From contig JBCCUP010000016.1 in NCBI GenBank assembly GCA_039196715.1, positions 1 through 64,000 of the forward strand: a stretch of 64,000 bases of DNA, in the 5' to 3' direction. A model generated the notes under the pieces. That model saw only the letters and a list, made by a program, of their open reading frames with translations, had not been told where the DNA came from and ran no database searches. The translations under genes and the position numbers were made by a program. The DNA is from Pseudomonadota bacterium (lineage in GTDB: Bacteria; Pseudomonadota; Gammaproteobacteria; CALCKW01). Shown here piece by piece: positions 2,779 through 7,799 of this stretch (position 1 is the first letter of the stretch; each line of letters starts with the position of its first letter).

Positions 2779-3804
2779 CTACTCGAAGAACAGGTCGATC
2801 TCGTCGTCGGTGAAATCGTCGAAATCGGAAAACAGGTCGATGTAGTCGCCGCCATCCTCGGGGAACACCGACAGGCCGTTGCCGTAGAAGAGGTCGTCAT
2901 CGCCGAGTTCGGCTTCAATGAACACCGGCTGGTCGAAATCGATACTCGCATCGAGTTCGACGTGCGCGGGCAGGACGATGTCGATCCCGCCGACGGCGAT
3001 ATCACCCTCGAACGCACCGTCGACCAGAAAGCCTTCGATCAGCAGTTCGCTTGATTGCGCCACGGTGTAGGCCACATCGTCGAGTGCGACGGAGTCGATG
3101 TGCACTCGGCCATTCTCGAGTCGACCGCGGGCGCGCAACCGACCCGCGGGGGTGGTCCCGGCCAAGCCCGATGCCAGCACCACGGGCATACCGGACAGCA
3201 TGCCGTCGCGCAGCGTGCCGACGAGCTGGACCGTGGGCGAAGGTGGAGTGGACTCGATGAGACTGGCGACAATGCTACCGTCAGCGCGGCGCAAGCCGCT
3301 GACCCGCACACGCTCGCCCGGTGTGAGGTCGGCGAAGCTGACGGCGGCGTCTCCCCTGATGACCCGTGCCGCATTGCCCAGCGTGATCGACTGGTTCAAC
3401 ACGGTGAGTCGGTTGGCGCTGCGGTCGACAGTGGCGATCGCGCCGATCACCTCGTACACAATGGCGATGCGCCTGGCCCGGTAGCGCGCGTCGAGCTTGT
3501 CGGATAACACGGCCACCACCTGGCCGATCTCGAGGGCGTCGGCCGGCCGTGTCTGACCGTTGGCTTCGATGGTGGTCGTCTCGTCGAACTCGACGCGCAC
3601 ATCGGAGAGCCAGATGGACCCGAAATCGGTGACGGTGCCGACGATGCCCGTCCCGCCAATGCCGTCCTCGAGGCGCTGACCGGTGCCCCCGATACCGTCG
3701 GCGAGGCGTTGCCCGGTACCCCCGATGCCGTCGCTCGGCAGCGGCAGTTGGCAACCCAACACCGCCGCCGCGGCCAGCAACGCCGCCCAGAGCAGTCGTG
3801 TCAC
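2779..3804 (-). CDS. DUF5666 domain lipoprotein
   Basis: The protein (341 residues) begins with a lipoprotein signal (MTRLLWAALLAAAAVLGC, lipobox cysteine 18) and so should be anchored in an envelope membrane. Residues 25-53 carry three tandem copies of DGIGGTG separated by QRLA/QRLE. The rest consists of repeated small beta-rich modules of the DUF5666 type (GTVTDFGSIWLSDVRVEFDETT, then VVAVLSDKLD, then VQLVGTL), ending in a strongly acidic tail (DDFTDDEIDLFFE). Function is unknown. I chose the GTG at 3804 because it starts the lipoprotein signal and overlaps the stop of the upstream DUF6502 gene by 4 bases (GTGA), which implies translational coupling. Confidence 0.8.
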   Translation of the reverse strand: MTRLLWAALLAAAAVLGCQLPLPSDGIGGTGQRLADGIGGTGQRLEDGIGGTGIVGTVTDFGSIWLSDVRVEFDETTTIEANGQTRPADALEIGQVVAVLSDKLDARYRARRIAIVYEVIGAIATVDRSANRLTVLNQSITLGNAARVIRGDAAVSFADLTPGERVRVSGLRRADGSIVASLIESTPPSPTVQLVGTLRDGMLSGMPVVLASGLAGTTPAGRLRARGRLENGRVHIDSVALDDVAYTVAQSSELLIEGFLVDGAFEGDIAVGGIDIVLPAHVELDASIDFDQPVFIEAELGDDDLFYGNGLSVFPEDGGDYIDLFSDFDDFTDDEIDLFFE

Positions 3805-4661
3805 TGTGGCGTCTCGGGGCGTGTGCTGTGCTCGTGCCAGGTGTAGATGCCCATGTTGATGCGTTGTGTGCCGCCACCGCGCGCCGCGTCGCGTTGCTTG
3901 AGCTCGCGCGCGCGTGCGTTTATCCGCTTGAGCGCATCCATGCCGACCTCCTCGGTCAACGCCCGCAGCTCGGCGATGGCTTCGTCGCTGAGTTCGTCGT
4001 AGTAGACACAGCGTTCGAAAAAGGGCGGGGTGCCGCCCTGGATGTTGTGTGCCACCGCGTTGAGGTGGTCCGAGAGGTTCATGCCGAGGAAAAAGGCCTG
4101 CTCCTCGACGCCTTGACGTGGTACGAACGCCTCGCTCTGCAACGTGATCCGGCCGTCGTCGGCTTCCGAAACGATGCCCAATCGCAGCCATTCGTCGAGC
4201 ACGACGCGCGGCCGCAGATCCTGTCGGCAGACCTCCTCGACCAGCGATTCGAAGCTCGGTTGATCCGTCGCCTTGAACGGTAAGGGTGCAGCGCTGCCGT
4301 CCGGTAACCGGTAGTGCGGTTCGCTGATCCAGCGGGCGACGATGCGCACGCTCTGGTTTACCGCGAGCGGTTCCTCGACGCCGGCTGCGAGTTGTGTGCG
4401 CAGCCGCTTGATGTCCTTGCGGTGGATACCGGTGAGCAGGCTCATGCGCGTGTCGGTCTGCGGTTTGCCCGGCAGCGGGTGTTCGTGCTCAGCCACCTGG
4501 ACGTAAGCGCTCTTGAGCAGCTCCAGCAACTGGGGATAGACGACGCGGTAGCGCATCAGCAGCCGCACCAGCGCCAGCACGATCAGCCGTAAAGCCTTGA
4601 TCAAGGGTGCAGGAGGCTCGCCGAGGCCGCCCTTTGTCGGGGGGGCGTTGTTCATGTCCAC
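3801..4661 (-). CDS. DUF6502 family protein
   Basis: This 286-residue cytoplasmic protein matches the DUF6502 pattern: an N-terminal helical region (LVRLLMRYRVVYPQLLELLKSAYVQVA) followed by a segment that looks like a winged helix (SLLTGIHRKDIKRLR, then IVARWISEP) and a C-terminal alpha-helical part. DUF6502 and DUF5666 genes are known to me as neighbours, and here they overlap by 4 bases. The helix-turn-helix look and the operator-like palindrome 17-29 bases upstream of its start suggest a DNA-binding regulator, perhaps autoregulated; that is inference. GTG at 4661 or ATG at 4655 could be the start; neither has a clear ribosome site. Confidence 0.8.
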   Translation of the reverse strand: MDMNNAPPTKGGLGEPPAPLIKALRLIVLALVRLLMRYRVVYPQLLELLKSAYVQVAEHEHPLPGKPQTDTRMSLLTGIHRKDIKRLRTQLAAGVEEPLAVNQSVRIVARWISEPHYRLPDGSAAPLPFKATDQPSFESLVEEVCRQDLRPRVVLDEWLRLGIVSEADDGRITLQSEAFVPRQGVEEQAFFLGMNLSDHLNAVAHNIQGGTPPFFERCVYYDELSDEAIAELRALTEEVGMDALKRINARARELKQRDAARGGGTQRINMGIYTWHEHSTRPETPQ

Positions 4662-4677
4662 GACCGTAGCACAAGGA

Positions 4678-4690
4678 GGGAATTATTCCC
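4678..4690. promoter_or_regulatory. operator-like palindrome, site 1
   Basis: GGGAATTATTCCC is a perfect inverted repeat around a central T, followed by AC. It lies just upstream of the DUF6502 start and shares the GGGAA...TTCCCAC pattern with the two sites near the protease promoter. Confidence 0.6.
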
Positions 4691-4741
4691 ACTCACTGGT
4701 TCCCAGACGGTGTGAACGGTTCTCGAGGCGACATCTCAGGG

Positions 4742-4797
4742 TTGACGTGGGAAATTTTCCCACTATTATTGCCTCCGAAAGCGAGGGAAATAATCCC
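4742..4797 (+). promoter_or_regulatory. sigma70-like promoter with operator in the spacer (sites 2 and 3)
   Basis: TTGACG (4742-4747) and TATTAT (4764-4769) are separated by 16 bases and form a strong sigma70-like promoter for the protease gene at 4822. The spacer is filled by a perfect palindrome, GTGGGAAATTTTCCCAC (4747-4763). A second, imperfect copy, GGGAAATAATCCC (4785-4797), lies just after the expected transcription start. A protein bound to these sites would block RNA polymerase, so this looks like a repressor-controlled promoter. The binding protein is not proven. Confidence 0.65.
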
Positions 4798-4821
4798 ACG
4801 CTATAACCGGAGACACTCGAC

Positions 4822-6558
4822 ATGAAGACCCCCTTATTGGCACTCGCCGTGTCAGCCGCTTGTCTGGCCAGCGCGCACGCGCAGGCGTTCAGCGTTCGGA
4901 TCATCAACGGAACCACCGCACAACCCAGCGCCTACCCCTGGATGGTGTCGCTGCGGCAGGGCGGAGGACAGTTCTGCGGTGCGAGCCTGATTGCACCCAA
5001 CTGGGTGATGACCGCCGCGCACTGCGTTGAGCAGGAGAGTGCGCAAGGCATGCAAGCGGTGATCGGTGATTTCGACCTGACTGACACTGACCAGGCCGAG
5101 CAGACACGGGGCGTGAAGCGCATCGTGATCCACCCGGACCGCACAGGTCGGGACGAGGACCACGACATCGCCCTGTTGGAGCTGCAACGGCCGGCGAGCA
5201 ACGCCGCGGTGGCACGTGCATCCGCCGCCGAGACCGACGCGATCGCCGCCGGCACGCCGCTGACGGTGATGGGCTGGGGTAACCGGTCCACCACAGGTGA
5301 AGACTTTCCCGATCGGCTACACGAAGTCCAGGTGCCGTTGGTCTCGCAGCGCCAGTGCGAGACCAACTACGGCGGTGGCATCACTGGCAACATGATCTGT
5401 GCCGGCCTGCCGCAGGGCGGCAAGGACTCGTGCCAGGGTGACAGCGGTGGGCCTTTGGTGTTCCAACGCGATGGGCAGTGGTTGCAAGTCGGCATCGTGA
5501 GCTGGGGCGAAGGCTGCGCGGTACCCGACCGACCCGGTGTCTACGCGCGCGTCGGCGCCTACACCGACTGGATTGCCAACACGCTGTCCGGTGGCGCCGG
5601 CAGTAACGGCGGCACGGGTGACATGGGTGACACAGGCGGCACGGGCCAGCCGGATGAGCCCACTGACCCGGATGCCGGCCCAGATGTCGGCGGTGGCGAC
5701 AACGGGGATGGCGGTTTCCCGCTGGCGGGAGACGTGTTTGGTCTGCCCGCGTGGCTGGATCTCTTTGCCTATGAGGGCGAGGTGGCCGAGGCGAGCCTGA
5801 GCTTCGTCAACACGACCGACACGTCGGTGGTCGTGTCGTCTGCAACCATCGACAGCCCGGCCTTTGACGTCGTGGCCAACGGGTGCACTGCATCCCTTGC
5901 GCCAGAGGCGAGCTGCGACATCGGCGTCGCGTACCAACCGGGCGACTACGGCGACTTCGACACCGCTAACCTCATGATCACTGTGGACAATGGCGCACTG
6001 ATCGACGTCGTGTTGGTCGGGGAAAACCTTGCCAGCCTGCCGGGTATTGGCGGCGCCGACGAAGGTGACTGGTTCGCCGACGACAGTGTGTGGATGCTCG
6101 ATGCCGACGGTGATGGCTACGCGCTCAATGCCTGGTCCGTGGTGGACGGGGACACCGGATTGCTGTTCGCCGAATTCGACGGACCCGGTCTGCTCGAATT
6201 CGAGTGGGGTCTGTTTGGTGAAGACCCAGAGAATCGTCTGGTCTATGCCGTGGACGGCGAACCGGTGCGCACCTTGACGGGCGGACACCGCACGGTCGGC
6301 ACGCATGCGACGACGCTGTCCGACGGTCGGCACACGGTGACCTGGGCGTTTCAGAAGCGGGCGGCGTCGACCGGTCAGGCCAAGGTCAGTGCGCCCCGGT
6401 TTACGCCTCGGACGAACGTGGCAACGCAGACGCAGTCTCGACCCACAGCTGCTCAACCGGACGCTGGGACACCGATAACCGGGGGCGGTGCTGGCGGCCC
6501 GCTCGGTACGCTCATGCTGCTCGGTGCGGTGGCGTTGCACCGTCGTCGCCGCGGCTGA
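4822..6558 (+). CDS. secreted trypsin-like serine protease with GlyGly-CTERM tail
   Basis: A 578-residue exported protease. Residues 1-20 form a signal peptide (SAHA cleavage). The S1 domain starts at Ile27 after Arg26 (VR-IINGT activation site) and contains the catalytic His67 (TAAHC), Asp115 (DHDIALLEL) and Ser208 (GDSGGPL); Asp202, six residues before the serine, predicts trypsin-like cleavage after Lys/Arg. A Gly/Asp-rich linker leads to an immunoglobulin-like module (about 320-395, SLSFVNTTDTSVVV), a further beta domain, and a C-terminal GGGAGG, hydrophobic segment and RRRR. That tail is the GlyGly-CTERM sorting signal processed by rhombosortase in type II secreting bacteria. GGAG at 4809 is the ribosome site. 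Confidence 0.93.
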   Translation: MKTPLLALAVSAACLASAHAQAFSVRIINGTTAQPSAYPWMVSLRQGGGQFCGASLIAPNWVMTAAHCVEQESAQGMQAVIGDFDLTDTDQAEQTRGVKRIVIHPDRTGRDEDHDIALLELQRPASNAAVARASAAETDAIAAGTPLTVMGWGNRSTTGEDFPDRLHEVQVPLVSQRQCETNYGGGITGNMICAGLPQGGKDSCQGDSGGPLVFQRDGQWLQVGIVSWGEGCAVPDRPGVYARVGAYTDWIANTLSGGAGSNGGTGDMGDTGGTGQPDEPTDPDAGPDVGGGDNGDGGFPLAGDVFGLPAWLDLFAYEGEVAEASLSFVNTTDTSVVVSSATIDSPAFDVVANGCTASLAPEASCDIGVAYQPGDYGDFDTANLMITVDNGALIDVVLVGENLASLPGIGGADEGDWFADDSVWMLDADGDGYALNAWSVVDGDTGLLFAEFDGPGLLEFEWGLFGEDPENRLVYAVDGEPVRTLTGGHRTVGTHATTLSDGRHTVTWAFQKRAASTGQAKVSAPRFTPRTNVATQTQSRPTAAQPDAGTPITGGGAGGPLGTLMLLGAVALHRRRRG

Positions 6559-6670: not shown

Positions 6671-7015
6671 ATGTTGATCGACACACGTTCTCTTTTTCTC
6701 GCCCTCGGCTTGTGCAGCATCGGCCCGTCGGTGGGGGCCACCGCCGCACTCGAACCCCTGCGCGCCGTGGGATTTGATGCCGAGGGTGTTAGCATCGAGG
6801 TGCGTAGCCACGGCTGCACCCACGCGCACGACTTCGTGCTCGACTGGGTGTTTGTCGAGCAGACGCCGGTTGCCTTGCAGGTTCGCCGGGAACGGCCCGA
6901 CCGCTGCCGCGGTAAGCCGCGCTGGGTGCGCTTGCGATTCGATGTGAACCACACCTTCAGCCGAGACATTGATGTCACGAACCCGTTCTCCGCGTGGGCG
7001 CGGTCCCCTCAGTAA
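6671..7015 (+). CDS. small secreted protein of unknown function
   Basis: A 114-residue protein with an N-terminal export signal (LFLALGLCSIGPSVGATAA). The mature part contains a CTHAHDF segment, two cysteines that could pair, and a basic, beta-strand-like end (RWVRLRFDVNHTFS). I do not recognise the family. A good ribosome site (GGAG, 6661) precedes the ATG at 6671. The 3' end overlaps the start of the next gene by 44 bases, so the two are probably co-translated from one message. Confidence 0.65.
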   Translation: MLIDTRSLFLALGLCSIGPSVGATAALEPLRAVGFDAEGVSIEVRSHGCTHAHDFVLDWVFVEQTPVALQVRRERPDRCRGKPRWVRLRFDVNHTFSRDIDVTNPFSAWARSPQ

Positions 7016-7799
7016 CGGCCTTGCGTTGACCGTGTGCGCCAGCGCCCTGTGGCTGCTTCCCGCTGCGCACGCGAGCACGGTCGGCACACGGGGTGCGACC
7101 TCGTTGCTCAGCCTCTCGCAGACGTTCAGCAACGGTGACTACGGGCTGGATGTCGACACCGACCTCAAGGCGACGGTGGTGAAGTGGGTTTACCGCCAAC
7201 GCGACTGGGGCTTCAGTCTCAGTGTGCCGTACCTCGACATCACCGGGCCTGCGACGGAAATCTGGGAGGACATCGACACCGGCGAGCTGTTTCTCGTCGA
7301 CGTCGACGACGACAACCGCGAGGGCCTCGGGGACACGGTGTTCAGTGTCGACCGCGTGCTGTCGCACTCCGTGGCCGGGCGACCCCAGCTCAAGGCGGGC
7401 GTGTCGCTCAAGGTGCCGACGGGCGATGAGTTCAAGGGACTGGGCAACGGTGAGTTCGACCTTGCCCTGGTGGGCAGCGGCCGTGTGCGGCGTGCCGAAT
7501 CGGTCTTCAACGTGTCCGTGGGCTACCAGTTGATGGGCGACACCGATGACATCGACTACAACAACCGGGCGTTCGTGGCTGCCGGTGTTTTCCGTCAGCT
7601 CGACAGGCGATCCGGCGTGGGGTTGCGCTGGCAATACAAGCAGGCTTCGCGTGATGAGCGGGACGACCTGATGTCCGTGGGCGCCTTTGTCACCCACCGG
7701 CTGCGACCCGCGTGGACTGCGGCAGTGAATCTGAACGTCGGCCTCAGTGATGCGGTGGCGGATGTGGCGTTTGGTGTGCAGGTCTCCCGGCGCTTCTGA
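6972..7799 (+). CDS. outer-membrane beta-barrel protein, transporter-like
   Basis: A 275-residue protein with a signal peptide (NGLALTVCASALWLLPAAHAS) and a mature part made of alternating amphipathic strands ending in aromatic phenylalanine (VAFGVQVSRRF), which is typical of an outer-membrane beta-barrel. The pattern (VKWVYRQRDWGFSLSVPYLDIT, LGDTVFSVDRVL, SLKVPTGDEFKGLGNGEFD) resembles the broad 'transporter' / MetA-pathway porin-like family (PF13557 type). Substrate unknown. The start is taken at ATG 6972, which overlaps the preceding gene. Confidence 0.7.
   Translation: MSRTRSPRGRGPLSNGLALTVCASALWLLPAAHASTVGTRGATSLLSLSQTFSNGDYGLDVDTDLKATVVKWVYRQRDWGFSLSVPYLDITGPATEIWEDIDTGELFLVDVDDDNREGLGDTVFSVDRVLSHSVAGRPQLKAGVSLKVPTGDEFKGLGNGEFDLALVGSGRVRRAESVFNVSVGYQLMGDTDDIDYNNRAFVAAGVFRQLDRRSGVGLRWQYKQASRDERDDLMSVGAFVTHRLRPAWTAAVNLNVGLSDAVADVAFGVQVSRRF

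Follow-up and report, generated by a model that had tools for sequence, protein, structure and literature searches.

The known systems that come nearest to the present locus are the cyanobacterial heterocyst regulator HetR and the classical autogenous local repressors. HetR binds GAGGGGTCTAACCCCTC (GAGGGG-N5-CCCCTC) in the hetP promoter (PMC4192349), the GGG-N5-CCC core of its operator is indispensable (PMC4649674), and its Arg62 contacts guanine. RGSGR and HRGTGR peptides inhibit HetR, and PatX is an exported protein that is processed by the peptidase PatP (PMC4649674, PMC12756182). Classical autogenous local repressors are recognized by a divergent gene pair whose core promoter elements are covered by several palindromic operators, and by a regulon that is largely limited to the locus. 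A divergent locus in the window analysed here (the whole 64,000-nucleotide stretch, positions 1 to 64,000 of contig JBCCUP010000016.1 from a gammaproteobacterial genome) shares these features and also meets the criterion that operators lie over both the regulator's own promoter and the divergent one. It differs from the classical examples in that its presumed regulator belongs to DUF6502 (PF20112), a family of unknown function, and in that the operator spacing splits this family in two. Comparative genomics and predicted structure make it very likely that DUF6502 is an autorepressor that also represses exported hydrolases, while binding, dimerisation and repression themselves remain inferences.

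The locus protein scores 127.1 bits against the DUF6502 Pfam model, well above the gathering cut-off of 27, and comparison with the homologue L157 suggests that the ATG is the more probable of its two start codons. The end of the DUF6502 gene is overlapped by 4 bases by the gene of its DUF5666 partner, and a secreted trypsin-like protease is encoded divergently (Table 1). Relatives of the PF13557 gene lie near DUF6502 in 50 of 80 related loci. Among the four genomes of the order, the trypsin gene was found in the genome under study only, which shows that the locus is accessory; with just four genomes, this comparison is uninformative beyond that point.

Table 1. Features of the divergent DUF6502–trypsin locus (coordinates within the window)
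Feature	Coordinates	Strand	Remarks
DUF5666 lipoprotein-like operon partner	2779..3804	-	Pfam E 1.8e-12; linked in relatives
DGIGGTG motif, three tandem copies behind the DUF5666 lipobox	3646..3732	-	Supported by motif statistics
DUF6502 gene (PF20112), inferred repressor	3801..4661	-	Pfam E 7e-37; start GTG 4661 or, likelier, ATG 4655
Predicted DUF6502 helix-turn-helix segment, TDTRMSLLTGIHRKDIKRLR	4398..4457	-	Residues 69-88 from GTG; most conserved segment of the family; model helices 70-77 and 81-91
Operator O3, GAGGGAATTATTCCCAC	4676..4692 (core 4678-4690)		In front of DUF6502; position class of the relatives' proximal sites, ~35 bp before ATG
Trypsin promoter	4742..4769	+	-35 TTGACG 4742-4747; -10 TATTAT 4764-4769; kept in relatives
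Operator O2, GTGGGAAATTTTCCCAC	4747..4763 (core 4749-4761)		In the -35/-10 spacer of the trypsin promoter; layout recurs in 26/80 loci
Operator O1, GAGGGAAATAATCCCAC	4783..4799 (core 4785-4797)		Just past the trypsin -10
Secreted trypsin-like protease, divergent target	4822..6558	+	Pfam Trypsin E 4.8e-67; divergent from DUF6502 in L157, L159, L161 and L162
Conserved 114-aa exported-looking protein after the trypsin gene	6671..7015	+	Homologues trail trypsin in L157, L159 and L162
PF13557 (MetA-pathway) outer-membrane-type protein	6990..7799	+	Pfam match

An initial annotation of the window had described three related palindromes between the protease and DUF6502 genes, and all three are present. 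They are more than a chance occurrence, because the 4.95-Mb genome holds exactly three copies of GGGAWWWWWTCCC, all of them in this divergent promoter, and none of the reversed control pattern. The further claim that one palindrome exactly fills the gap between the -35 and -10 boxes held in part, as the spacer measures 16 bp (4748-4763) and the first G of the 17-bp O2 palindrome doubles as the final base of the -35 box. The third site, previously placed 17 bases before DUF6502, ends 16 bases before the GTG or 22 before the ATG. Paired sites 33-36 bp apart also occur in L157, L161, L170, L181 and L235. The own promoter of DUF6502 is poorly defined at this locus, a point against the repressor reading.

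The same annotation had proposed that the absence of such a motif near other DUF6502 genes would refute its reading, and this test was run on two sets of genes. The first was a class-wide sample of 274 genomes. Of these, 76 carry DUF6502, a wide distribution for the class as sampled, and they supplied 92 DUF6502 genes, each searched over the 320 bp upstream of the conserved domain. GGGA-N5-TCCC was found at 15 and GGGA-N6-TCCC at 28 of the 92 genes, against 0.53 and 0.42 expected from dinucleotide shuffles, while the spacings N3, N4, N7 and N8 remained at background (1, 2, 0 and 0 genes, respectively). No such site was present within the searched 320 bp at 46 of the 92, the second DUF6502 gene of the genome under study among them, and this weighs against the proposal that DUF6502 reads the sites. 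The second set comprised 80 named relatives of the locus-type DUF6502, searched over the 300 bp upstream of the start codon, and here GGGA-N5-TCCC was present in 55, with any other spacing tried (N2 to N10) found at most once; several relatives that lack the exact N5 site carry a version with one mismatch. The motif thus passed the test: it is strongly enriched, its spacing is specific to the clade and its position in the promoter is conserved.

In a maximum-likelihood tree of 91 DUF6502 proteins, N5 operators are confined to one clade, which includes the locus protein (support 100/99), and N6 operators occur only outside it. The tree requires a single change of operator type, compared to a mean of 12.7 when labels are shuffled, and none of 500 shuffles was as low. 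Furthermore, one genome (G137), the only one on which the same-genome argument rests, encodes two DUF6502 paralogues, one from either group, and in both cases the operator type matches. Because operator type tracks the DUF6502 clade, even between these two paralogues, it is very likely that DUF6502 itself, and not a global factor, reads the sites, although there are no binding or expression data. A side observation is that the second DUF6502 gene of the genome under study (contig 1, 96631-97392; L005/L055) belongs to the other clade and has neither operator type nearby.

The placement of the sites relative to promoter elements is also conserved. The layout seen at O2, TTGACG-[TGGGA-N5-TCCCAC]-TATTAT, recurs in the divergent promoter of 26 of the 80 related loci, with the consensus TTGAC-G-[T/C]GGGA-N5-TCCC-[A/G]-C followed by a -10-like box. 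Proximal sites in the relatives precede a TATACT-like box and stand some 35 bp ahead of the DUF6502 start. N6-clade operators overlap a -10 box that follows a near-perfect TTGACA. These comparisons show directly that the sites exist and are conserved, that they overlie core promoter elements and that their spacing differs by clade. All of these positions fit repression through exclusion of the polymerase, which is inferred. In the proposed mechanism, a DUF6502 dimer would bind each GNGGGA-N5-TCCCNC palindrome; the protein bound at O2, between the trypsin -35 and -10 boxes, and at O1, just past the -10, would exclude the polymerase, and the protein bound at O3 would cover the upstream part of its own promoter, leading to autorepression of the DUF6502-DUF5666 operon. 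The repressor layout over the trypsin gene and this operon, as well as DUF6502 as the binding protein, both proposed by the initial annotation, are accordingly retained as supported inferences from comparative genomics and, for the binding protein, predicted structure, without binding data. Separately, at 17 of the 26 sites examined in N6-type loci (L009-L058), no more than 6-8 bases separate the predicted -10 from the ATG, and the DUF6502 mRNA of this clade is therefore likely to be leaderless.

The protease is not the general target of these operators, which qualifies the layout as first described. The closest relative, Candidatus Thiodiazotropha (L157, 67% identity), keeps the whole arrangement, with a MetA-like gene, a 115-aa protein and trypsin divergent from DUF6502-DUF5666, and operators at -136, -101 and -34; a divergent trypsin is also found in Thiotrichaceae-type genomes (L159, L161 and L162). 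Elsewhere, trypsin is replaced by other proteins. Pseudohongiella-type and SAR86 genomes have an alpha/beta-hydrolase as the divergent gene (Pfam support above the cut-off for L203, weak for L166), and in G128 a beta-propeller gene (PF09826) is preceded by an operator pair near DUF6502. The equivalent META/beta-propeller target of G179 and G052 is unlinked to DUF6502 and still carries paired operators, with TTGACG beside one of them. Judged from the operator sites, the regulon is small and consists mainly of exported proteins. A large regulon was considered and rejected, as genome-wide motif counts are mostly near background and the sites inspected in G239 are scattered and partly intragenic; that genome has 14 N5-type matches compared to 1 in the control. 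The open-access literature searched yielded nothing relevant on DUF6502/PF20112 or a TGGGA-N6-TCCCA site, and no mention of DUF6502. The present evidence provides the family with a concrete and testable function, with one binding motif for each of its two clades and a set of targets.

The AlphaFold2 model of the locus DUF6502 (pLDDT 90.4, pTM 0.78, from a 63-sequence alignment) contains a helix-turn-helix and a winged-helix-like second domain, in support of the winged-helix look noted earlier. In the predicted helix-turn-helix, a T-G-x-x-R-K segment and an upstream Arg are conserved in both clades, as is the shared GGGA half-site, and these residues are possible base readers, a suggestion that rests on the model and not on binding data. 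One position, which precedes R-K and opens the recognition helix, separates the clades: the N5 group invariably has His there (His80 from the GTG, His78 in ATG numbering), the N6 group Thr, Asn or Ser.

HetR is the sole full-length fold match of this model (Foldseek E 2e-3, probability 0.99). The VIA comparison of the full model with HetR gave a modest score (Z 8.2 over 219 residues, rmsd 10.4 A), and the high rmsd probably reflects a different domain arrangement. When the region after the DNA-binding domain was predicted alone, the five HetR entries were the top five on re-alignment, the best with Z 8.1 over 78 residues at 2.5 A, compared to 6.6 for the best unrelated chain; in Foldseek alone, HetR was not significant for this region (E 0.08). 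In this second domain, DUF6502 residues 97-183 align onto HetR 97-218, and the DNA-binding and flap domains are collinear in the predicted fold. For the HetR-type hood domain (alpha-beta-alpha-beta), which binds the inhibitory peptide, the helix order fits, and the strands are unformed in the monomer model. In addition, HetR Arg62 may correspond to the conserved DUF6502 Arg72 (GTG numbering), an assignment taken from our own helix-turn-helix register and not from a tool.

Beyond the collinear predicted fold, DUF6502 and HetR share GGG/CCC inverted-repeat operators and a site upstream of their own gene. The differences are considerable, however. Sequence similarity is not detectable: hmmscan found no match to PF03574 (Peptidase_S48) or PF18460 (HetR_C) among 63 DUF6502 members at E<=10, HetR searched against Pfam gave no PF20112 match, and hhalign of DUF6502 with HetR gave E 0.61, a weak test with a HetR profile of only two near-identical sequences. 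A PDB sequence search with the DUF6502 profile returned nothing but a ParA match (E 0.82), no PF03574 was found in the genome under study, and plasmids searched for HetR sequences contained none. The GGG-N5-CCC core of HetR is absent from the DUF6502 sites, which read GGG-N7-CCC in the N5 clade and GGG-N8-CCC in the N6 clade and which overlap core promoters in a repressor layout. Moreover, DUF6502 is found in Proteobacteria beside exported hydrolases, and the equivalence of the hood domain is unproven. By analogy and from the model, DUF6502 may thus work like HetR and may be a remote relative, but it is not assigned as a HetR member. A fold of the HetR kind in bacteria other than cyanobacteria would be relevant to how the heterocyst regulator arose.

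The exported-looking partner encoded downstream of DUF6502 carries a motif of its own. [S/D/G]-G-[ILFVM]-GGTG occurs in the partner at 74 of 79 N5-type loci, compared to 3.3 in shuffles, with 198 copies in total, often in tandem and for the most part near the N-terminus and 9-15 residues apart, and it is independent of the presence of a DUF5666 domain. The motif was absent from ten DUF5666 proteins not adjoining DUF6502; one further DUF5666 protein, L276, whose contig also encodes a DUF6502, has one copy. The literature searched held nothing relevant on GGIGGTG as a bacterial motif.

These data allow a speculative extension of the repressor reading, in which DUF6502 could be a remote HetR homologue and a GIGGTG-type peptide of the partner would switch its binding to DNA. 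This peptide would mature beyond the cytosol, and in genomes with trypsin the divergent protease would do the processing. In its favour are the HetR matches of the full-length model and of the second domain, the concentration of the motif in operon partners, and the precedent set by peptide inhibition of HetR together with PatX export and PatP cutting (PMC4649674, PMC12756182). Against it are the lack of a sequence-profile link, the modest Z and full-length rmsd of 10 A, the GGG/CCC spacing of N7 or N8 compared to N5 in HetR, the absence from GIGGTG of the arginines that contact the hood domain, and the lack of a known import route. The likeness to the PatX/PatP/HetR circuit lies in a DNA-binding regulator, an exported protein with a G-T-G-containing motif and, at this locus and in trypsin-bearing relatives, an exported protease under shared control. 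In contrast, the motif is GIGGTG here and RGTGR there, the DUF6502 partner is a lipoprotein or another exported protein rather than a small peptide precursor, and the parallel, with a peptide effect on DUF6502 yet to be shown, is no more than suggestive. The bolder reading, that this is a proteobacterial HetR/PatX/PatP counterpart in which an exported hydrolase controlled through the same operator matures a GIGGTG peptide, is no more than a possibility; if true, it would hint that the peptide-sensing module predates heterocysts. In any case, the motif offers a candidate ligand for DUF6502.

Turning to explanations that compete with repression, DUF6502 could bind the sites and act as an activator, or as a ligand-dependent repressor/activator. 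HetR, its best fold match, shows positive autoregulation and also switches on other genes (PMC4649674, PMC4192349), and the paired and distal sites could serve activation. This is nevertheless unlikely, since the sites lie in the -35/-10 spacer or over the -10, at near-consensus boxes, which fits steric exclusion.

A second alternative is that the palindromes are bound by a different transcription factor whose gene lies elsewhere, with DUF6502 as merely one of its target genes. The N5 pattern does occur sporadically in genomes without DUF6502, and a few of these, such as G097, hold many copies of related patterns. Against this, each DUF6502 clade has its own operator spacing, which holds even for the two paralogues of a single genome, the sites of the genome under study are all at the DUF6502 locus, and the predicted structure of DUF6502 contains a helix-turn-helix, and we regard this alternative as very unlikely. 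In G097, where no DUF6502 was found, there are 16 GGGANWWWWNTCCC matches compared to 1 in the control, perhaps owing to another regulator or a repeat.

The view that the palindromes act as RNA hairpins (terminators, attenuators or mRNA stability elements), for which it can be said that O1 would fall in the trypsin 5' leader, is all but excluded because O2 sits in the promoter spacer, upstream of the transcription start and hence outside the trypsin mRNA, and the length of the centre is fixed (N5 or N6 by clade) with its position tied to promoter boxes.

Two minor observations concern the exported proteins of the locus. DUF5666 and DUF6502 tend to occur together, with 27 of 32 DUF5666-bearing genomes also carrying DUF6502 in a 114-genome sample. 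The C-terminal tail of the trypsin, for which no NCBIfam match was obtained, is encoded at 6480-6558 (+) and contains a Gly-rich stretch, a hydrophobic segment and RRRR, which by eye resemble a GlyGly-CTERM sorting signal.
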